Of a stretch of 64,000 bases of DNA, positions 53,129 to 64,000 are shown piece by piece (within the stretch, counting starts at the first letter, position 1; the number at the start of each line of letters is the position of its first letter). The stretch is taken from assembly GCA_017535315.1 (NCBI GenBank), contig JAFXUD010000002.1, forward strand, positions 62,001 through 126,000, in the 5' to 3' direction. Both the position numbers and the translations under genes were made by a program. The stretch comes from Victivallales bacterium. Its GTDB lineage: Bacteria > Verrucomicrobiota > Lentisphaeria > Oligosphaerales > Oligosphaeraceae. The notes under the pieces are model-generated. The model made no database searches, was not told the DNA's origin, and saw only the letters and a list, made by a program, of their open reading frames with translations.

Positions 53129-53209
53129 AGTGATTAGTGGTTAACGGCAACCACTTGCTAGACCACTGCCCCCTAATCCCTAATCCCTAATCCCTAACCA
53201 CTAATCACT
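53129..53209. terminator. Inverted repeat with CCCTAAT tandem units between convergent genes
   Basis: AGTGATTAGTGGTTA (53129-53143) pairs perfectly with TAACCACTAATCACT (53195-53209). The loop contains short CCCTAAT tandem repeats on the right; TTAGTGA repeats flank the left arm. It separates the convergent CE15-like and kinase genes and overlaps the kinase stop codon, so it probably ends both transcripts. Confidence 0.55.
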
Positions 53210-55271
53210 GCTGCGGGACGAGCGCAATTCTGAAGCCAGATACCGAGTCGGAATAGGTACTCGGCATACCGTCTTTAGCACGTGAACCATGTATCATGTA
53301 TTTGCCAGAGAGATGATAGTTTCCGCCTTTCGTTATATGCAGGGCCCCTGCGTCTATTTTAGGGAACTCTGGATTCTCTGAAATCGTTTTTTGATTCACG
53401 AAAACATCGCGGCACCATTCTTGCACGTTGCCATTCATATCGTAAAGGCCAAGCTCATTCGGCAGTTTTCCCTTGACGGGATGCGTACACCATTTGTATT
53501 TAGGCTGATCATTGCGATAATCCCCCGAATAATCACTTAATTCGCATACTCCAGAGTTTTCGGCGCACCATGCGACATCAATAAACGAGTCGCTGCCGCT
53601 GTGTTCATAACCGCGGCTTATGATACCGCCTTTTGCGGCGAATTCCCATTGGGCTTCCGAGGGCAAGTCAAATGTGTATTGAGGGGGAATCTGGTCTGAA
53701 AAGAGGTTGTTCAGCCTCTGGCAGAACTCTCTTGCATCATTCCACGAGACATTCTCAACAGGATGCTCTCTTGTATTCGGTATCTCTTGCGGCAAATAAC
53801 GGCCATAACGACCTCCTTTTCTGAAGACGGAAGGATTGGTATTCATGACCGTTTCCCACTGTCTCTGCGTAATCTCCGTTTCGCCCAGCCAGTAATCCCG
53901 CGTCAACGCAATGGAATACTCTATCTTTATGCGGGGATGCCCCATGAAAAAGTTTCCAGCCTTGACTTTGATGAGCTTCAAAGAGGTACCATTTACAAAG
54001 GAAATGACAAACTCCGTCGCCTTGTCGGGCTCGACAGGCTCCTTTTTTTGGGGGGATGTCGCGGAACGTGAATACCACTTCCACGTCGGCTCATCGACAT
54101 CAGGCTCTGCGGCTATGCTTTTCTCCATAAGCTGTGTTTCCGACGGAACTACAGGTTTTGAGGCTGGTGCGGTGGTTTGTTCTGTATGCATCGCTATAGG
54201 CGATGAGGGGGCGCTGGGTGTCTTGCCGTGGTAAATGGCAATGCCCCCAACGGCGATGAGCATAACGACTGCGACACCGACAACAAGGCGCATCGCAGAC
54301 GGGCGTACAATGGAGGACAAATGCCCGCCTTCCAAGGCCGTGATGAACTCCGTGCAACTTGCAAATCGATCGGTGGCCTCCTTGGAGAGGGCACGCCGCA
54401 GGGCGGCGTTTGCAAAGGAGGGAATCCCCTTGATAGGCTCCACCGCCTCTTCCAAGACTGCCTGTTTCAAGACTTCGGCATCCGATGAATCGAATGGAAG
54501 GCGTCCTCCCAGCATCTCGTAGGCCATGACGGCCAGTGCGTACTGGTCGGCGGATGCCCCTTGCGGCTTGCCGCGCCACTGCTCTGGCGCCATGTAGGCA
54601 CGTGTGCCACTTGTGCCATGGTAGGCTCGTGATATGTGCGTGAGGCTGCTGTAGATTTGTGCGGCCAGACCAAAGTCCATCACCTTCGCCTTGCCGTCAA
54701 GCGTAAGCATCACATTGCTTGGCTTAATGTCGCGATGTATCACCTTCAGTTCATGCGCATAGTCCAGTGCCTCTGCCACCTGCCGCAAAACAGCCAGCGC
54801 CTCCTCAAGCGGAATGCTGCCGCGTTCCTTTTGCATGCGGTGCATCCAATGGCGCAGGCTTACACCCTTGACATACTCCATCACCAGGTAACAGTCGCTT
54901 GTATCTTTGTCCAGCTCAAGGCTTTTGGAGACAGCGATGTTTTGGTGGACGAGGCGCGAGACCAACTGGAAATTCTCGCGCACCTCCTCCATCTCCGCCT
55001 TATTGTGGGAAAGTTCGGGTGGCAGCGCCTTCAGCGCGACTTCGATTCCCGCCGTGCGGTCCAGGCAGCGATAGACCACTCCCATGCCGCCGCGCCCAAG
55101 CTCCTCGATGACCTCGTAGCGCCCATCGACCAGCCTGTCGCCAGGGCGCGGCTCCAGAGGACGCACGCCATCATTTCCCTTCTCCGTCGGAAAATCGAAA
55201 TCGTCATCGGATGATGCGCCGTCGGTAATGCCTTTCTCGGTCTTGAAACTGTAGTCGTCCATTGTCACCAT
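53205..55271 (-). CDS. Ser/Thr protein kinase with transmembrane segment and FGE-sulfatase-like domain
   Basis: The kinase domain spans about residues 50-310: glycine loop GRGGMGVVY, Lys81 in VALKAL, HRD at 179-181 in VIHRDIKPSN, DFG at 199-201 and APE at 228-230, all intact. A transmembrane helix (about 328-347) leads to a proline/serine linker. The C-terminal domain (about 415-688) is of the formylglycine-generating-enzyme type (FFMGHPRIKIEYSI, YDMNGNVQEWCRD, SGFRIALV); the two Cys of true FGE are not evident, so it is probably a ligand or sensor module. The N-terminus repeats FKTEKG and FPTEKG, possible phosphothreonine sites. The HTH-FHA gene is 41 bases upstream. Confidence 0.88.
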   Translation of the reverse strand: MVTMDDYSFKTEKGITDGASSDDDFDFPTEKGNDGVRPLEPRPGDRLVDGRYEVIEELGRGGMGVVYRCLDRTAGIEVALKALPPELSHNKAEMEEVRENFQLVSRLVHQNIAVSKSLELDKDTSDCYLVMEYVKGVSLRHWMHRMQKERGSIPLEEALAVLRQVAEALDYAHELKVIHRDIKPSNVMLTLDGKAKVMDFGLAAQIYSSLTHISRAYHGTSGTRAYMAPEQWRGKPQGASADQYALAVMAYEMLGGRLPFDSSDAEVLKQAVLEEAVEPIKGIPSFANAALRRALSKEATDRFASCTEFITALEGGHLSSIVRPSAMRLVVGVAVVMLIAVGGIAIYHGKTPSAPSSPIAMHTEQTTAPASKPVVPSETQLMEKSIAAEPDVDEPTWKWYSRSATSPQKKEPVEPDKATEFVISFVNGTSLKLIKVKAGNFFMGHPRIKIEYSIALTRDYWLGETEITQRQWETVMNTNPSVFRKGGRYGRYLPQEIPNTREHPVENVSWNDAREFCQRLNNLFSDQIPPQYTFDLPSEAQWEFAAKGGIISRGYEHSGSDSFIDVAWCAENSGVCELSDYSGDYRNDQPKYKWCTHPVKGKLPNELGLYDMNGNVQEWCRDVFVNQKTISENPEFPKIDAGALHITKGGNYHLSGKYMIHGSRAKDGMPSTYSDSVSGFRIALVPQQ

Positions 55272-55312: not shown

Positions 55313-56254
55313 CTATCCCAATGCCGTGCTTTGCCCCTTCTGCGAACTTCCAATCAGCCTCTGCGCGAAGTGGTGCGCCTCCACGGCAAGCGGCCCCTCC
55401 TGCCATTTCATTCCATCGGAAAGACCCAGCAGCGTCCCCGAAGGCGTCAGCAGCAGAAAACCGCCATTTCGGCGGTAGATGTGGAGGCCTGTAAGAGAGC
55501 CATCCAGGACGCCAAGGTCGCAGCACTGCCAGACAATCGCAAAGCCCTCGGGCAGGCCGTCCTCCCTGGCAAGCGTGACCGACTGCACCTTGTGTGCTTC
55601 GTCTGTGTGAATCTTCAGTTGGAACGCGATGTCGCCCATCGAGAGGCGGCATTGCGGTGGTAGGGGGATGCCGTTCTTGCTGCTGGTCGCGGGTGTGACG
55701 CCGTCTATGCGCGTGGAATCCTTTTTCGTGAAGAGAAGGACGCGGCCATCGCTGCTGCAAATCTCAAGCTGCTCGCGGCTGACCGTTGACGTGGGGCGTT
55801 CAGAGGGCTTGGCGTTGTTCTTCCAATCGACGACGGCAAAGTCATTCCTTTCGGGATGCCGCCCGAATTTGACCTTCTCCTTGGCGCAAATATAGACTGC
55901 GAAGCCGCCGATGAGCAGCGTGATCGCTTCGAGTTGCTCTGTGTGTGGGAGGGCCTCTGCAGTCTTGAACGCACCCTCTCCATGGGTATCCAGCATGGTC
56001 TCCCTGGCAATCAACTGCGGGGGGTAGAGTGGAGTCTTCTTGTGCAAGATGATTGGCTCGACGACCTCATCCCGCACCTGCACGCGCTGTTTCTGCAGGT
56101 ATTCCTCCAGGTCCTTTTCCGCGACCCTGTAGCTCTTGCCGAACCTGTATGCAGGCAGTTCGCCTGCTCGTACCAAATTGTACACCATCTGGTAGGAGAC
56201 GCCGAACTTCGCCGCAACCTCGTGCAGAGTATAGAATGTTACATTTCCCAGCAT
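55313..56254 (-). CDS. HTH (excisionase/MerR-type) protein with FHA domain
   Basis: Residues 6-55 are a helix-turn-helix of the excisionase/HTH_17 type (FYTLHEVAAKFGVSYQMVYN, then RFGKSYRVAEKDLEEYL). A hydrophobic stretch follows (about 109-122, ITLLIGGFAVYI), then an FHA-like domain with KFGRHPERND (131-138) and STVSREQLEI (156-165). FHA domains bind phosphothreonine. With the kinase gene directly downstream, this looks like a two-protein phospho-signalling unit: the kinase phosphorylates itself, this protein binds it or is modified, and DNA binding changes. That order is inferred. The hydrophobic stretch may be core packing rather than a membrane helix. Confidence 0.75.
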   Translation of the reverse strand: MLGNVTFYTLHEVAAKFGVSYQMVYNLVRAGELPAYRFGKSYRVAEKDLEEYLQKQRVQVRDEVVEPIILHKKTPLYPPQLIARETMLDTHGEGAFKTAEALPHTEQLEAITLLIGGFAVYICAKEKVKFGRHPERNDFAVVDWKNNAKPSERPTSTVSREQLEICSSDGRVLLFTKKDSTRIDGVTPATSSKNGIPLPPQCRLSMGDIAFQLKIHTDEAHKVQSVTLAREDGLPEGFAIVWQCCDLGVLDGSLTGLHIYRRNGGFLLLTPSGTLLGLSDGMKWQEGPLAVEAHHFAQRLIGSSQKGQSTALG

Positions 56255-56778: not shown

Positions 56779-59205
56779 TTATTTCAGGCTTTTCAGCAGT
56801 TTCTGGAGGTCTTTCAGCCAATCGATGATGCCATCGAAGGGGATGTCTTCCTTGCGCCACCAACCGAACTCTCCTGCTTTATGTTCTGGGAAGAGATTTT
56901 TTAGTTCTGGATATGCTTCCATTGCGTCGGCCATTTTTTGCGGATTCTCATGGCTTTCCCAAATGCCTGTTCCAAAGCCAGTACTATGCAAATGGATGCT
57001 TATGCCGAATGTGTCATTGCCAAGTTGAGCGCCGTCAAGATAAGTCTGGCTATACCATTGACTCATTTTGGTGAAGGGGGCGAGGTCCATGGCTTTAAGC
57101 TCGTTGCGGAGTTTTTCATCATGCCCCATGCATAATGCATTGATTTCTGGTATCAGCTTGAATCGGATGCGCATCAGACCGCTGAAAAAATCCGCAAATC
57201 TCTTGACGGATTCATCTGCAATGACTTCTTCCAGAGTGTTGAAGCAGAACATCATGTGTAAATATATTTGTCCATACTTCTGACCAGCCTGATTTACCTC
57301 ATTGTATGTGTCTGAAATGTTTAGCTTGATTTCAGGGGATTTTGCAGCATATTCCCGTATTTCCCGTACGACGGAATCATGAAGTCCAGAGCATCCAAGC
57401 AACGCCTCCTCTTCCTGAATGGTGCCATAACCCCAAGCTAGGAAAGAAATGCTACTCGATAAGGCAACATTGTACGACTTGTCATCATGCCCGATGGTGA
57501 CAAGCATATCGGCACCGCTATTACCAGCCTGTTTCTGTTTTTCAAAGACGAAATAGAGCTTGCTTTGAACGCGTCCGTTTGTGCATTTGAAGGTATCCAA
57601 ATCCCCCATGTGTGAATTGACTTCTGGAACGAACTTGTCCCTGAACACCTTCAGCCACCAGGAAGGATTGAAGTCCTCTATCTTCTTGACGACGGTTTCC
57701 TCCGTCGTGTGGACATTGGTGACAGCGGAGAAGCGTATCAGACGTTCAATTGTGCTTGCTACCGCCTCGTCATGCTCTTTGACGGCTGTTGCCGCATCTT
57801 CGCTCTCGCCCTTCGGGACGATATCGCTGATTTTGTTGAGGAGGCGCGAGATGTCAACGACACGGCTGGAGAGGTAATTGTCCTTGAGGCAGACTCTGAA
57901 CAGAATGCGCTCCCAAGGTTCGTCGAAGTCATCTCCCTGCTTATCCAACTTTTTCTGCTCTGCTTCGGTCAACTCTTGCAATGAGAGCTTTTTGACAAGG
58001 GTCTTGCCGTCGCCGCCATTGTCATCCCCCCACTGGCGGAAGTTCGGGTACTCAAGCAATGTGTTGTAAACCAGCGGATAGATGATCTGCAGGCAGACCA
58101 GTGCGAAGTTTACCTGCTTGTCAAGCAGGATTTCCTCGGGCGTCTGTTTGTTTTCAGAATTATTCCTGTCCTCCTCCGTCATCAACTGGATGAGCGAGAG
58201 AATGTTGGTCAATCGCTTCAGCGAGCGCGGATTCGTCCCTACGGAGTACATCGCCATCTGCGTGAGATTGCCCTTCAGCTCCTCGTTGTTCAACTCTTCG
58301 GGGGTCAGGTAGCCGATGCGGCTTAAGGCATCGATGAGGAAGGTGTCAATCCTGTAGGAGGAGACGGGCATCGCAAAGGGGAGCTGGATGATTTTGTCGA
58401 AGAAGGAACGGAACTCGCGAGCGTTCTTGTCGGTCAGTTCGCCGAACTTCGGCTTCAGTCCCTTGACCACCACGTCGTAGTCGATGGCAAGGACGTAGAT
58501 GCAATGTTCTAGGTCGAAGATGTTCTTAAGGAGTTCTAGAATCTGCACGGCGAAAGGCGGGTCAATGCGGTCAAGGTCGTCGATGAAGAACAGAAAGCCC
58601 CTGCGGCCTTTTGCAGTGCTTTTTGCAAGAATCTCCTTGATGAAGGAGGCGATGGTCTTTTTCAGTTCCGCTATCTGGGAGTCGCCTGTGGCTGGTGCGC
58701 TGGCCTGGTCTTTGGCAACCTCTTCATACGCCTTGACCAATTGATTGCCTGCATCGCCTGCTCCAATGAACTTCCCCGCTGCATTCAGCGCATAGGTGCT
58801 GGCGATTTTGCCGATTTTGCCGAGCATCGGAATGAGCTTGCGCTTCTTTTCCTCCTCGTTTGCCTCCAAGGCGTTACCCAATTGGTAGATGATACTCTGG
58901 AGGATGCCGATGATGGAGCTTTCGGGGTTGCTCAAAATGGAATGCTGCCACGTGTTGATCCAGACCGAGTAGTACAGCGCTCCCTCGGCCTCGCAGAGAT
59001 GGTATTTCAGGAGATTCATCAGCGAGGTCTTGCCGCTTCCCCATTCGCCCTGCAACGCAATGGTCAGCGGTGTGTCCGCGCGCTTTATGAACTCCGTCAA
59101 AGCATATTCATATCTGGATATGCCGAACTTGTCTTTGTCACTCAGATTCTCCTGACTCGACAACGTGACTGGCTGGTCAATGATGCTGCTGTGCTGCTCG
59201 GTCAT
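56779..59205 (-). CDS. KAP-family P-loop NTPase
   Basis: The ATG at 59205 has GGGAG upstream and gives 808 residues. The KAP layout is clear: Walker A GEWGSGKTS (53-61), the KAP-typical VWINTWQHS after strand 2, a long insert (about 100-195), Walker B FLFFIDDLDRID and a following LKNIFDLEHCIYVLAIDYDVV. Most bacterial KAP ATPases have membrane helices in the insert; here LNAAGKFIGAG is too weak to call one. KAP proteins are often found in phage-defense loci. The C-terminal 400 residues are not recognised. It lies 34 bases after the small Cys/His repeat protein, in one operon. Confidence 0.82.
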   Translation of the reverse strand: MTEQHSSIIDQPVTLSSQENLSDKDKFGISRYEYALTEFIKRADTPLTIALQGEWGSGKTSLMNLLKYHLCEAEGALYYSVWINTWQHSILSNPESSIIGILQSIIYQLGNALEANEEEKKRKLIPMLGKIGKIASTYALNAAGKFIGAGDAGNQLVKAYEEVAKDQASAPATGDSQIAELKKTIASFIKEILAKSTAKGRRGFLFFIDDLDRIDPPFAVQILELLKNIFDLEHCIYVLAIDYDVVVKGLKPKFGELTDKNAREFRSFFDKIIQLPFAMPVSSYRIDTFLIDALSRIGYLTPEELNNEELKGNLTQMAMYSVGTNPRSLKRLTNILSLIQLMTEEDRNNSENKQTPEEILLDKQVNFALVCLQIIYPLVYNTLLEYPNFRQWGDDNGGDGKTLVKKLSLQELTEAEQKKLDKQGDDFDEPWERILFRVCLKDNYLSSRVVDISRLLNKISDIVPKGESEDAATAVKEHDEAVASTIERLIRFSAVTNVHTTEETVVKKIEDFNPSWWLKVFRDKFVPEVNSHMGDLDTFKCTNGRVQSKLYFVFEKQKQAGNSGADMLVTIGHDDKSYNVALSSSISFLAWGYGTIQEEEALLGCSGLHDSVVREIREYAAKSPEIKLNISDTYNEVNQAGQKYGQIYLHMMFCFNTLEEVIADESVKRFADFFSGLMRIRFKLIPEINALCMGHDEKLRNELKAMDLAPFTKMSQWYSQTYLDGAQLGNDTFGISIHLHSTGFGTGIWESHENPQKMADAMEAYPELKNLFPEHKAGEFGWWRKEDIPFDGIIDWLKDLQKLLKSLK

Positions 59206-59239
59206 GGTTATTACTCCCATTCAGATTTTTGATACTCTA

Positions 59240-59620
59240 TTATTTTAGCGGAGAATGGTTGCCTTTGCGGAATCCATCAGGATGTTTAGGACAGGAACTT
59301 GTCACGAGAGAGCGAAAATCGCTTTTATGCTCCCCACAGTATTTACAAGTATATTCTGATTTCGTTCCACCTTCGTATGGAACGTGGTTGCCCTTGCGGA
59401 ATCCATCAGGATGTTTAGGGCATGATTGGGTCACGATATCGCGGAAGACACGTTTGCTCTCTCCACAGTAAATGCATCTGTATTCACTGTCTTCAGGCCC
59501 TTCAAACAACTCATGTTTTCCGTTGCGAAAGCCTGCTGGATGCTTGGGACATGAGTTTCTGAGTAAACTCGCTGGATCACTGTTTTCTTCTCCGCAAAAC
59601 TTACAGAAATACTTCGCCAT
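59240..59620 (-). CDS. Small protein of three tandem CxxC...CPKHP modules, unknown function
   Basis: The 126 residues are three repeats of about 42: each has Y-x-C-x2-CG, a 14-16 residue stretch, SCPKHP(D/A)GFR-x-G-x-H. With two Cys, then a Cys and one or two His per module, each is probably a zinc-binding fold. Modules 2 and 3 are also very close at DNA level (about 30 bases nearly identical), so the gene grew by recent duplication. An AAGGAG site precedes the ATG. It is translated just before the KAP ATPase and may be its nucleic-acid- or protein-binding partner. I do not recognise a characterised family. Confidence 0.75.
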   Translation of the reverse strand: MAKYFCKFCGEENSDPASLLRNSCPKHPAGFRNGKHELFEGPEDSEYRCIYCGESKRVFRDIVTQSCPKHPDGFRKGNHVPYEGGTKSEYTCKYCGEHKSDFRSLVTSSCPKHPDGFRKGNHSPLK

Positions 59621-59943: not shown

Positions 59944-61875
59944 TCAAGATACGATGAATTGGAAGTTCCCGTCTGCATCACGATTTCCCTTGGGGGGTGT
60001 GTCGCTTTCCCACCAAGATGGATCACACACATTATACCACACACCATCTTCCTTGGCCTTTGCCCACCATGGCCAGGATGAATCAAAGTAAACTCGCTCA
60101 TTGAGCAATAGTTGGCGATTTTTCCGCTCGTTGTCATTAAAATCCAGGCGAATGCTGTTGGCACTTCGTTTGCTGTCAGTCTGAAGAAGGTACATCCACC
60201 CATACCACCACCGCAATGCCGAATTTTCCACTTGACCAGAACGGAGCAAATCTACCAGTTGAAGCATCCATGCAGGTGTCTGCTGTGGCGTATCTGGGGC
60301 ATCATGCCACATCTTCAGCGCATCAATGAAACGCCCATCCGTTAAAATATGCTCTTTCCACACATTCACATCGCCTGCGTGAAGAGGCGTGAAAATATAA
60401 CGTTTGTGTACGTTGATCTTCTCCGAAGGAATCCTAGAGACAAGATCTTGATAGAAATCCAGCCATTCATCTCCCGTAATCGCAGCACGAATAGGCTCCA
60501 GTCTTTCGCTGATGTCCTCGGCATCGCGGAATTGTGTCCATCCAATGAAGCGAAGACTGCCATTCTTAACAAGCTCGTCAGTCTCAAATGTGGTGATAGC
60601 TTGTTCTTCTATTGACCATTTTCTGATTTCGTCTCCCAGCTGTTCTGGGGAATATCCAACCAGGCGTGACTTGATGGTTTCCAAATCCAAAATCCCCGCG
60701 ATGAAATCAAGACCAACTTTCATGGCATCTACAAAATTATACACATTAATTGAGGATGCATCAAGCAGGTTGAGAATGATGCGACGGCGACGCTGGTCGT
60801 CTTTAACTTCATCATGCGCATTCTCCGCCAAGAATGCCATACGCAAAATATCGCCACATGAGGCAGGTGCTCTGTTTAGAAGCCAATTCTTCCAGAATTC
60901 CGTTTCATTGGCTGGTACATTCCAAAGTGCGTTTTGCGCACGTTCGCTGGTCCAGCATTTGGCGATTGTCGATAACTTGTCGAAATATCCCGCTGCAATT
61001 TTGTAAAACGTCACGCGAGTTTTTTCATCGAAAGCACCCTCGCCATCTCCTGAAAGTTTCTTCTCCATCTGCCAAAGAGAATCATTCTGCGATTCGAATC
61101 GCGCATACGCCACTCGAATGATTTTCTCCATTGCAGCGTCAAGCCTGGATATATCGTTGTTGGAATGTAGCCAGATGCATTCTGTCCAATCTCCATCGAC
61201 TTTATCGCGCCAAGCGTCCGCCAACTCCTGGGGCAAATACTTGTCAAGCATTGCCTTCATATTTTCCCATGGCGACAACTCCTTTCCACGTGCGTTCATC
61301 TTACGGAAGATATGGTCAAAAGTGTCGCTGTGCCCGTCAATTCCGTGCAGCAAAAATGAGATTCTCCCGAAATCGGCGTCAGCTCGGTTGCGCTGACCAA
61401 TGGTCTCGTGCAGTGCATCCAGCATCTGCAGCATTCCATCAACGCTAGGATCTTTCTCCCAAATTGGAAGGAACCACCCAGAACCTTTGATTTCAACAGA
61501 AGGCAGACCCTCCGCCTTGCAGGGATGCTCCAGAAGCCCTTTCACGAACAGTTGCGGAATACGCCTCGCTTCGTATGTGAAACACCAGTCTGACTTCCAC
61601 TTTCCGCATAGCCAGGCCAGCAAAAACAGCGTGGATAGGCGCTGCTGCCCGTCAAGAGGCAGCAAGCACTGCTCTTTTGTCACGCCATAGATGAAATCCA
61701 ATGAGAGTTCCTCGCCACCAAACACAGCTTTTACCAATGCAGGTGCAAAGTTCTTGCGGATTTCAAGCCCTTTTTCATCTCCTCGACCTTGCACATAGCC
61801 ACGCTGTATGCGTGGCACACAAATGCCCTTGGGAAACAAGCTGAAGATTCTTTCCAAGGTATATTTTTCGCTCAT
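59944..61875 (-). CDS. DUF262-domain protein (GmrSD_N-like), larger subunit
   Basis: The 643-residue protein starts with the DUF262 pattern: VPRIQRGYVQGR (20-31, a variant of the usual IPxYQRxYxW) and LPLDGQQRLSTLFLL with DGQQR at 75-79. DUF262 has a ParB/sulfiredoxin-like NTPase fold and is the N-terminal half of GmrSD type IV restriction enzymes. Later comes FDHIFRKMNARGKELSPWE, the family's usual second conserved block. The C-terminal 300 residues show no clear DUF1524 nuclease motif. The start overlaps the stop of the next DUF262 gene (ATGA), so the two are made together. Confidence 0.8.
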   Translation of the reverse strand: MSEKYTLERIFSLFPKGICVPRIQRGYVQGRGDEKGLEIRKNFAPALVKAVFGGEELSLDFIYGVTKEQCLLPLDGQQRLSTLFLLAWLCGKWKSDWCFTYEARRIPQLFVKGLLEHPCKAEGLPSVEIKGSGWFLPIWEKDPSVDGMLQMLDALHETIGQRNRADADFGRISFLLHGIDGHSDTFDHIFRKMNARGKELSPWENMKAMLDKYLPQELADAWRDKVDGDWTECIWLHSNNDISRLDAAMEKIIRVAYARFESQNDSLWQMEKKLSGDGEGAFDEKTRVTFYKIAAGYFDKLSTIAKCWTSERAQNALWNVPANETEFWKNWLLNRAPASCGDILRMAFLAENAHDEVKDDQRRRRIILNLLDASSINVYNFVDAMKVGLDFIAGILDLETIKSRLVGYSPEQLGDEIRKWSIEEQAITTFETDELVKNGSLRFIGWTQFRDAEDISERLEPIRAAITGDEWLDFYQDLVSRIPSEKINVHKRYIFTPLHAGDVNVWKEHILTDGRFIDALKMWHDAPDTPQQTPAWMLQLVDLLRSGQVENSALRWWYGWMYLLQTDSKRSANSIRLDFNDNERKNRQLLLNERVYFDSSWPWWAKAKEDGVWYNVCDPSWWESDTPPKGNRDADGNFQFIVS

Positions 61876-63494
61876 TTTGCACCTCTCATGAATTGGTCAA
61901 ACGTTTGTTTCATTGTCTCGCGGTAATTTACCGCATCATCTTTTCCCCAGTATCGCATCTGAGCCGCTGATGTGGAATATAGCTTGGCAAAAACAGCCTC
62001 TGTCAAAGGAGGAATATACTTTCCATTATTCAGCGATTCTTTGAGAATCCACCGCCGTTTCGCAGGGAAGATGGCATTCTTGTAGGCCCTATTCGTTCCT
62101 GCGTCTAAAAGCGCAAGGTTTTCAATCCCGTCCTTGTCGACAATTCTATCTTTATCATCCTTTTTCTCGAACAGGTTGAAGACAAACGACCATTTCTCTG
62201 CAAAACTCTTTCTCTCATTCAAAAGGTCCAGATCACTCTTTGTCATCTCCTTTTGCGCCAAGGCTAGCCACTGCTCCTGCTCGTCTTTGTCAGTGAGTGG
62301 ATTGTCCGTCTGCGAGGCGATATGTTCGATATCCCAGCGGTATTGTTCATACAAGTCGAAGCGGAAGCGAATGTGTTGTCGCTGTGCTTCCAGCGCATTG
62401 AGAAGAACGAAGAAGCCACGCAAATCGTCCGTGGACGCGAGATTATATCGGAATGAGTCGAAGTCTCTTTCTACGATGCCGTTAGCCACAAGCTGCCGCA
62501 ATTCCTTCTTGAATGCATCCATGCGACAACCTTTCTTTTGCCAAATGTCCCAGAGCCCTCTGGTTCCTCTTTCAGAAAACAGTACTAGCCAACCGAGCAG
62601 GTGATAGGCTTCATCGTCAGCAAAGCACGATTGCATCCACCACCAGCATCGAAGTGTCATCTCCCACATTGCCCGCAGCTCCTTTTCCTTTGCAAGGGTC
62701 TCCATCTTTCGATAGACGAGCAAACCGTCCTGTCGTGCTTTTTGGGAATCAACATCGGTAACAATGGAAAAGAGAAAATCCATCCTTGTAGGCACATCTC
62801 TAAAATCTTGTTTTTTCCAAATCGCCCAAAACTCATCGTTGCCCATTTCGGCTTCAATCAAATCCCACTCCTTGGCGATATCCGCTTTCTCACTATCGCT
62901 TAAACCATTTCCTGCCTCCATATAGAGTGCCCTAATAAGTTCTGAGGAGGTTAGCGGAGTTTTACCAGCATTCAGCCGCTGGAAAACAGCGTGGCCATCT
63001 TCTGATGCCTCGATTTCATAAAGGAGGAAAATCACCCTTTTATTACCATTGCCATTTATCAACTCGCATAATGCCTCTTTGCGTGAGTTGTCTTGTCGTA
63101 GCCAATTCTGCACAGCGGCACGTGCCTGATTTCTGAAGAAATCATTGATGGAATTGCCAGGTGCCTCAAGCAACTGGCTTAGCAACATTCCTCCTTCAGC
63201 GGTGTATTTTATATCCCAAATGTGTTTTATCTCCAACTCGTGCAAAATAATAGCTATTGTAGTTAGTCGCTGCTGTCCGTCCACGACATTGAGTTCACCC
63301 TCATCTAGTTTTTGGAGTACCAAGGGCTGGAGACAGTAAGGTTCTTCTTGTGTGGAATTCTGCGCAAACGCAAGGAAGTCATCAAGCAAAGCCGTGACTT
63401 CCTTATTTGTCCACCGATAACCACGTTGATAATGTGGAATGATAAAAACTGTTGCTGGAATCCTACTTACAGATAATTCGCGTTTGTCATTCAT
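61872..63494 (-). CDS. DUF262-DUF1524 protein (GmrSD-like)
   Basis: The ATG at 63494 with AAGGAC upstream is chosen over a GTG 27 bases earlier. The 540 residues contain the standard DUF262 motifs IIPHYQRGYRW (18-28) and VVDGQQRLTT (70-79), FQRLNAGKTPLTSSELIR, and a C-terminal DUF1524-like His-Me-finger region: RWDIEHIASQTDNPL and ENLALLDAGTNRAYKNAIFP. GmrSD enzymes with this pairing cleave modified phage DNA using NTPs. In DUF1524 the His of IEH and the Asn of the NLxLL-N segment are the likely catalytic residues, both present. It is first in the operon, upstream of the larger DUF262 protein. Confidence 0.85.
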   Translation of the reverse strand: MNDKRELSVSRIPATVFIIPHYQRGYRWTNKEVTALLDDFLAFAQNSTQEEPYCLQPLVLQKLDEGELNVVDGQQRLTTIAIILHELEIKHIWDIKYTAEGGMLLSQLLEAPGNSINDFFRNQARAAVQNWLRQDNSRKEALCELINGNGNKRVIFLLYEIEASEDGHAVFQRLNAGKTPLTSSELIRALYMEAGNGLSDSEKADIAKEWDLIEAEMGNDEFWAIWKKQDFRDVPTRMDFLFSIVTDVDSQKARQDGLLVYRKMETLAKEKELRAMWEMTLRCWWWMQSCFADDEAYHLLGWLVLFSERGTRGLWDIWQKKGCRMDAFKKELRQLVANGIVERDFDSFRYNLASTDDLRGFFVLLNALEAQRQHIRFRFDLYEQYRWDIEHIASQTDNPLTDKDEQEQWLALAQKEMTKSDLDLLNERKSFAEKWSFVFNLFEKKDDKDRIVDKDGIENLALLDAGTNRAYKNAIFPAKRRWILKESLNNGKYIPPLTEAVFAKLYSTSAAQMRYWGKDDAVNYRETMKQTFDQFMRGAK

Positions 63495-64000
63495 TTTTGT
63501 CTTGTCCTTGTCATGTATCACTAATTCTGAGTGTATTAGTCATTACCAAAACCTTATCTATATTTGGGAGAGGTATATACTTTTGTTTCCCAGAAGACCT
63601 AGAAGACTTAGTGGGAATTGTCTAGGTAACAATAATCCCGTAAGGCCTTGTACTTCCGTGAGAGGTTGACGACCTAGTAGCATTTTTCCAGGTAACAAAA
63701 TATATAATTACAAAAAAAGGGCACGGTAAGCGTCTCTGGTCCATCGAAGGTACTTGCAAACCTGGAAAAAGCACAGAGACTCCCGTGCCCAAAGTGTGGG
63801 GCGTAGAGTAGCCTTGCGCCGTATTTTTTCCGTGGAAAAGATTGCAAGTTTTTCGATGGAACGGCGATATGTCAGAAGCCCATCAGGGCTTGATGCTGTA
63901 AATGTCCTTTATATGCTCCTTGCGTTTAAGGTGGTGAAATCCACCCTTAATGTAAGGTGCTTTGGGCGTTTTACAAGCACTGACAACCGTTTTTTTCCCA
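63495..64000. other. Upstream region of the DUF262 operon, structured, no gene
   Basis: The 506 bases have no supported frame. They include AGGTAACAA direct repeats near 63625 and 63690, the composite hairpin at 63719-63790, a sequence at 63842-63860 complementary to the hairpin interior, and a hairpin TTAAGGTGG/CCACCCTTAA at 63926-63950. Confidence 0.5.
63719..63790 (-). ncRNA. Candidate structured RNA or terminator with nested stems
   Basis: GGGCACGG/CCGTGCCC (outer, 8 bp) encloses GTCTCTG/CAGAGAC (7 bp) and a weaker inner AGGT/ACCT helix. On the minus strand the structure is followed by T7, so it could end a transcript from the right or be the tail of a small RNA. A competing helix with 63842-63860 is possible. 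No known RNA family is recognised. Confidence 0.4.

Follow-up and report, generated by a model that had tools for sequence, protein, structure and literature searches.

What does a small protein made of repeated cysteine- and histidine-containing modules do beside a KAP-family P-loop NTPase? The question is raised by a locus of a Victivallales bacterium, which we analysed within a stretch of 64,000 nucleotides (the window). A sequence-only reading had noted this pair, but it overlooked two DUF262/GmrSD genes that lie on the same strand, just upstream of the small gene. Based on the gene content, the relatives of the four genes and the residues that the modules share, we tentatively propose, at somewhat below an even chance, that the 126-aa protein acts as a repeat-reading adaptor within a horizontally spread four-gene KAP/DUF262 cassette, probably directed against phages or plasmids.

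Gene content of the locus

As the sequence-only reading had it, the small protein is whole, encoded by a single open reading frame (Table 1) and composed of three CxxCG...SCPKHPxGFR...H modules, which follow the pattern CxxCG-x13-C-x2-HP-x-G-x3-G-x-H with a period of 43 residues. Because its gene has a good ribosome-binding site (AAGGAG) and dN/dS is 0.06 in the closest related pair (loci L149 and L151), we regard it as a real, constrained protein. It matches the profile of a two-module family with an E-value of 2.5e-66, and the three cysteines and the HP...G...H pattern are conserved in each module across 58 sequences; this C-C-C-H pattern suggests that each module binds one zinc ion. The AF2 model (mean pLDDT 86) predicts a strand, a hairpin and a short helix per module. 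Scans of the small protein against Pfam, NCBIfam, PHROGs and PADLOC gave sub-threshold noise only, with no family reaching its cut-off, and a known zinc-ribbon family, which the sequence-only reading had named as possible evidence against itself, was sought in Pfam and NCBIfam, where nothing exceeds the curated cut-offs. A PDB profile search returned weak C2H2 and eL43 matches only, and Foldseek of the model against PDB and viral models nothing below E 0.1. An Rfam scan of the region detected no RNA element, and a promoter and terminator scan gave counts just slightly over those of shuffles.

The KAP gene does follow directly, starting 19 bp after the small gene, or 34 bp if its second possible start is used. 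Its product matches PF07693 (E 7.5e-34; 117.7 bits against a cut-off of 20) and carries Walker A (GEWGSGKT at residue 58) and Walker B (IDDLDR) motifs. The PADLOC matches, to PDC-S20 (2.5e-35) and PifA (2.5e-32), cover the NTPase part only, and the C-terminal part matches no Pfam family. By hydropathy only, no transmembrane segment is clear (top 19-residue Kyte-Doolittle mean 1.5, at residue 370), and an AF2 model of KAP built on 8 sequences was of low quality (pLDDT 65, pTM 0.36).

Along the minus strand come DUF262a, DUF262b, a 323-bp gap, the module protein and KAP, the two DUF262 reading frames overlapping by 4 nt. A decayed copy of an 84-aa companion protein was sought in the gap, and none was found. 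DUF262a matches PF03235 (4.6e-29) and PF07510 (2.2e-6) and contains DGQQR at 81, EHIASQT at 399 and NLALL..N..YKNAIF; judged by domain and motifs, it is a putative DUF1524 His-Me finger nuclease that would be nuclease-competent. In DUF262b, no nuclease domain was detectable by Pfam or motif search. A similar division, in which one member of a pair has an EH[IVL]..Q nuclease-type motif that is absent from its partner, is seen in the DUF262 pairs of L150, L159, L160 and L088. Since EH[VI] is also present, outside nuclease context, in the other member in L159, L160 and the window (DUF262b), this split is one of motif and not of structure. The genome that contains the window has, at another place (L127:7859-12554), a DUF262 pair with a WYL regulator after it and no zinc-module protein. 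Downstream of the cassette and on the same strand, the window encodes a protein kinase fused to an FGE-sulfatase (SUMF1-like) domain (53205-55271), with a helix-turn-helix protein beside it (55313-56254).

Table 1. Coordinates, within the window, of the four cassette genes and of the modules of the small protein
Feature	Position	Strand	Length	Remarks
KAP-family P-loop NTPase	56779..59220	-	813 aa	second possible start (ATG) at 59205
Three-module zinc protein	59240..59620	-	126 aa	open reading frame and translation; profile match to two-module family
Module 1	59483..59611	-		residues 4-46
Module 2	59354..59482	-		residues 47-89
Module 3	59243..59353	-		residues 90-126
DUF262b, GmrSD_N	59944..61875	-	643 aa	PF03235 8.3e-10; DGQQR at 75
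DUF262a, GmrSD_N + GmrSD_C (DUF1524-like)	61872..63521	-	549 aa	GTG start; ATG at 63494

Age of the triplication

The sequence-only reading had called the modules near-identical and their array recent and variable between strains. The first description does not hold, identities among the modules being just 47, 57 and 70% in protein and 50, 58 and 70% in DNA. Modules 2 and 3, said to have almost the same DNA, are 70% identical as wholes (modules 1 and 2, 50%), and the statement is correct only for a short patch encoding SCPKHPDGFRKGNH, their sole near-identical stretch; a repeat finder reported a single 101-nt pair at 75%. As for the second description, a colinear three-module layout is also present in L149, L150, L151 and L159, four loci of the same phylum, where module 3 ends identically (..HSP) and the linker pattern is that of the window. 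Based on this common layout, ending and linkers, the simplest reading is that the triplication predates the split of these lineages. Comparison with the four loci rules out the recent tandem array deduced from DNA identity and leaves its strain variability unsupported; the SCPKHPDGFRKGNH patch is the only local and recent change.

Recurrence of the cassette around a KAP clade

When L025 and L088 are added to the results of searching the phylum, the order to which G192 belongs and the class of the window, eight KAP genes make up a single clade with identities of 38-67% (the window, L149, L150, L151, L159, L160, L088 and L025). The small protein is encoded within 6 kb of seven of the eight, mostly on the same strand, the exception being L160, and five of these seven loci have the three-module form. 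DUF262 genes stand near six of the eight (the window, L150, L151, L159, L160 and L088). In L150, from another class of the same phylum, all four genes are side by side in an order different from that of the window, with the small gene directly after KAP; DUF262a and DUF262b are respectively 57.8 and 52.7% identical to their window counterparts. More distant KAP genes are without the small protein, some of these contigs being short.

As the small gene has a density of only about 1 per 2.6 Mb even in genomes having one, chance is no serious explanation for its pairing with KAP. L149, L151 and L159 belong to one family, so the lineages are not all independent, and L025 (Clostridia) is a 5.5-kb MAG contig for which mis-binning is possible; there are four or five separate occurrences, namely the window, Victivallis, L150, the L149 group and the Clostridia MAG. 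We consider the recurrence of the four-gene cassette well supported, and neither the profile libraries nor the open papers searched describe a KAP, zinc-module and DUF262 combination. In the window, the GC content of the cassette (43-49%, with one 1-kb block at 54%) is below that of the adjoining 12 kb (48-63%), as would be expected of imported DNA.

Other genes accompany this clade. An acidic protein of 79-85 aa (..NWEDP..EETQELIEAIVAELK..DFWDKID..), with no convincing Pfam match, recurs at L149:10576-10833, L025:2669-2923, L159:1445-1702 and L160:1895-2134, in the last case despite the absence of a zinc-module protein; the window does not have it. In L160, whose KAP/DUF262 cassette has no zinc-module protein, three consecutive tyrosine-recombinase-like genes (L160:9850-13231) flank the cassette. 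Upstream of the KAP cassette of L150 (L150:1202-4201) are two pairs of short ORFs (72-74 aa and 166-167 aa) of the 'LYHGS...DFG.GFY' type, which resemble putative DUF3990-like ADP-ribosyltransferases and suggest a defence island.

The module family and its neighbours

The family that the module defines is uncharacterised and has no model in Pfam, NCBIfam, PHROGs or PADLOC. When one genome per species was scanned, at least 261 loci emerged, mainly in Bacteroidota, Spirochaetota and Verrucomicrobiota (Lentisphaeria/Kiritimatiellae), with few in Bacillota; the 80 loci kept from it are the nearest to the query and no random sample of the family. When modules are counted per homologue, as had been suggested, nearly all members have two (83 aa). 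Three are found mainly in KAP-linked proteins (the window protein and four relatives) and also in one secreted protein (L055), and a related protein with a hydrophobic N-terminus has five, of a CTYS..HKH subtype (L124:7979-8734). The sequence of locus L017 is carried by G014, a family relative of the window genome. Family members occur on five plasmid records. Phage origin was rejected, as neither protein nor DNA comparison matched any phage record and, among 2.9 million viral contigs, 2 have the small protein and none KAP. An N-terminal signal peptide or membrane anchor precedes the modules, which are here less matched to each other, in L038, L041, L055, L056, L070, L073, L079, L083 and L097, mostly from Kiritimatiellae/Lentisphaeria. 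Because Kiritimatiellae-type members are exported, this argues that the module is a general binding unit, with defence as one use among others.

Within 6 kb of the small gene at 92 loci with flanks, we found DUF262 at 26 (22 of them on the same strand), a WYL regulator at 27, an RNase T exonuclease at 21, an AAA ATPase at 14, a metallophosphoesterase at 9, a PD-(D/E)XK nuclease at 9 and KAP at 3. Of the 65 family genes in 50 whole genomes, 15 have DUF262 within 5 kb, where 0.46 would be expected, and 2 have a strong KAP gene within 10 kb, where 0.07 would be. DUF262/GmrSD is the broader and commoner partner of the family. The coupling to KAP that had been claimed is borne out from the side of the KAP clade (seven of eight) but not from that of the family (three of 92). 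Homologues scattered without KAP neighbours, which the sequence-only reading had named as evidence against itself, are literally what the whole family presents; the coupling at the level of the clade is strong nonetheless. In Bacteroidota and others, L024, L045, L046, L049, L059 and L081 share a recurrent accessory set of changing gene order (a DUF262 pair, a WYL-WCX regulator, an RNase T exonuclease, a metallophosphoesterase, a 561-aa AAA ATPase and a two-module zinc protein), which may be a system of its own.

These neighbourhoods bring in a second explanation, namely that the small gene forms an autonomous cassette by itself, travelling in defence islands and mobile regions, that the protein has a role of its own, for example as a small zinc-dependent regulator, and that KAP and DUF262 are no more than common neighbours in such islands. 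Its neighbours are indeed diverse, at least one of the seven types being near 58 of the 92 copies and none near 34, and carriage on plasmids also suits such a cassette. We nevertheless find this explanation unlikely, though well worth keeping in view, as the three-module form and the KAP clade coincide in five loci of several families, and as the small gene is present at seven of the eight KAP-clade loci against an island background of well under 1% per locus.

Matched residues within each protein

Comparing 75 two-module proteins, we found eight module positions (6, 8, 16, 17, 18, 20, 26 and 27) that vary widely from protein to protein and yet agree between the two modules of a single protein (67-80% within, 13-26% between). 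The mean agreement is 5.89 of 8 against 1.66 after shuffling (maximum 2.17 in 5000 shuffles); the eight positions were picked by largest excess, so the excess per position is somewhat flattered, and the shuffle margin is far larger. A module is closer to the second module of its own protein than to that of the nearest relative (5.89 against 4.35). The residue pair after HPxG in three-module KAP-linked proteins has the same tendency (FR/FR/FR, WC/WC/WC, AY/SY/NY). Agreement is lower in signal-peptide members (4.1 of 8) and higher in DUF262-adjacent ones (6.6 of 8), both values being uncorrected for phylogeny. The surface residues are matched as if every repeat reads the same target, a pattern that fits a ligand reader without proving it and would suit the sensor or targeting subunit suggested earlier. 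A wider reading, to which we give rather low probability, would have a general bacterial recognition class whose members each read a tandem or dyad target through two or more zinc modules, the fast-changing specificity residues being kept identical between modules, with an exchangeable partner enzyme (DUF262 pair, KAP or others) and a valency set by module number.

Matching of this kind could also result from mere gene conversion between repeats, which would be silent on recognition. Local codon usage predicts a codon identity of 0.393 at matched sites and of 0.453 at invariant ones; the observed values are 0.507 and 0.489, so that about a fifth of the matches may have been recently copied, and the nearly identical stretch common to window modules 2 and 3 points the same way. 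On the other hand, columns 2, 7, 11 and 24 are interspersed among the matched ones with almost no within-protein excess, agreement remains 5.89 of 8, against 1.71, in the 45 proteins whose codon identity is low, and the modules of L062 are 94% identical in protein with a codon identity of 0.29. We judge conversion on its own to be improbable and read the matching as probably reflecting coordinated selection in the main, with a minor share of recent copying.

Proposed mechanism

DUF262/DUF1524 proteins have known defence roles, and in GmrSD, BrxU and SspE the DGQQR-bearing DUF262 protein is an NTPase by which a DUF1524 nuclease is gated (PMC10952713); KAP proteins also have known defence roles, one example being the defence protein Tmn (PMC11846954). 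In the adaptor cassette that we favour, the modules would bind a repeated or two-fold ligand, either nucleic acid or an oligomeric invader protein, and the zinc-module protein, as the ligand reader, would interact physically with the NTPases and present the ligand to them. KAP and DUF262b, the latter a paralogue with no detectable nuclease domain, could then act as an NTP-driven signal relay. NTP hydrolysis by KAP and/or DUF262 would license cleavage at the DUF1524-like site of DUF262a, the putative cutter, which would be both NTP-gated and nuclease-competent. Several observations count against this adaptor cassette: most family members adjoin neither KAP nor DUF262, the close KAP locus L160 has a DUF262 pair without the small protein, gene order is unfixed and 323 bp separate DUF262b from the small gene. 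The signal peptides or membrane anchor of some members are also an ill fit to a purely cytosolic defence adaptor.

That the small protein is instead an antitoxin or inhibitor, silencing a toxic neighbour (the DUF262a nuclease or KAP) until infection, would agree with its small size, its short-spaced, co-directional position beside nuclease-type genes and surface residues that could track varying partners, but is quite improbable, since the small gene occurs before, between and after the putative toxins, and since DUF262 pairs without it, in the same genome (L127, L128) and in L160, should be lethal if it were obligate.

If the adaptor cassette is correct, a widespread unnamed family, with at least 261 loci across a single genome collection, would be a candidate specificity subunit of defence systems, and eight positions may predict the specificity of the small protein. 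The combination of KAP, zinc-module protein and DUF262 pair gives a definite candidate for a new defence system of several genes, and one that can be cloned.

Comparison with known systems

The modules share with small zinc ribbons and C2H2/C2HC fingers a CxxC knuckle, a hairpin and a short helix, but they differ by the C-x2-C-x14-C-x2-H spacing with a further invariant H, by their matching and by the lack of any weighty profile or fold match. Tmn, PifA, QatA and PADLOC PDC-S20 have a KAP NTPase domain with Walker A and B motifs as in the window KAP, which differs from these defence proteins by its Pfam-unmatched C-terminal part and its partner genes. Tmn has two transmembrane segments in the NTPase domain, unlike the window KAP as judged by hydropathy only, and the window KAP scores far below the QatA equivalog cut-off of Qat (63.9 bits against 600). 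Menshen, Dazbog and PD-T4-2 likewise place a DUF262 protein beside partner genes (PMC10952713). Their DUF262 is without DUF1524, whereas the window cassette adds a nuclease-bearing DUF262, and they are likened here by their description. Finally, DUF262a resembles GmrSD/BrxU type IV restriction enzymes, a class that cleaves DNA with modified cytosine using NTP, in its DGQQR NTP-binding motif, its DUF1524-like EHI motif and both Pfam domains; the cassette differs from these in having a second DUF262 protein, with no nuclease domain detectable in it, a KAP NTPase and a zinc-module protein.
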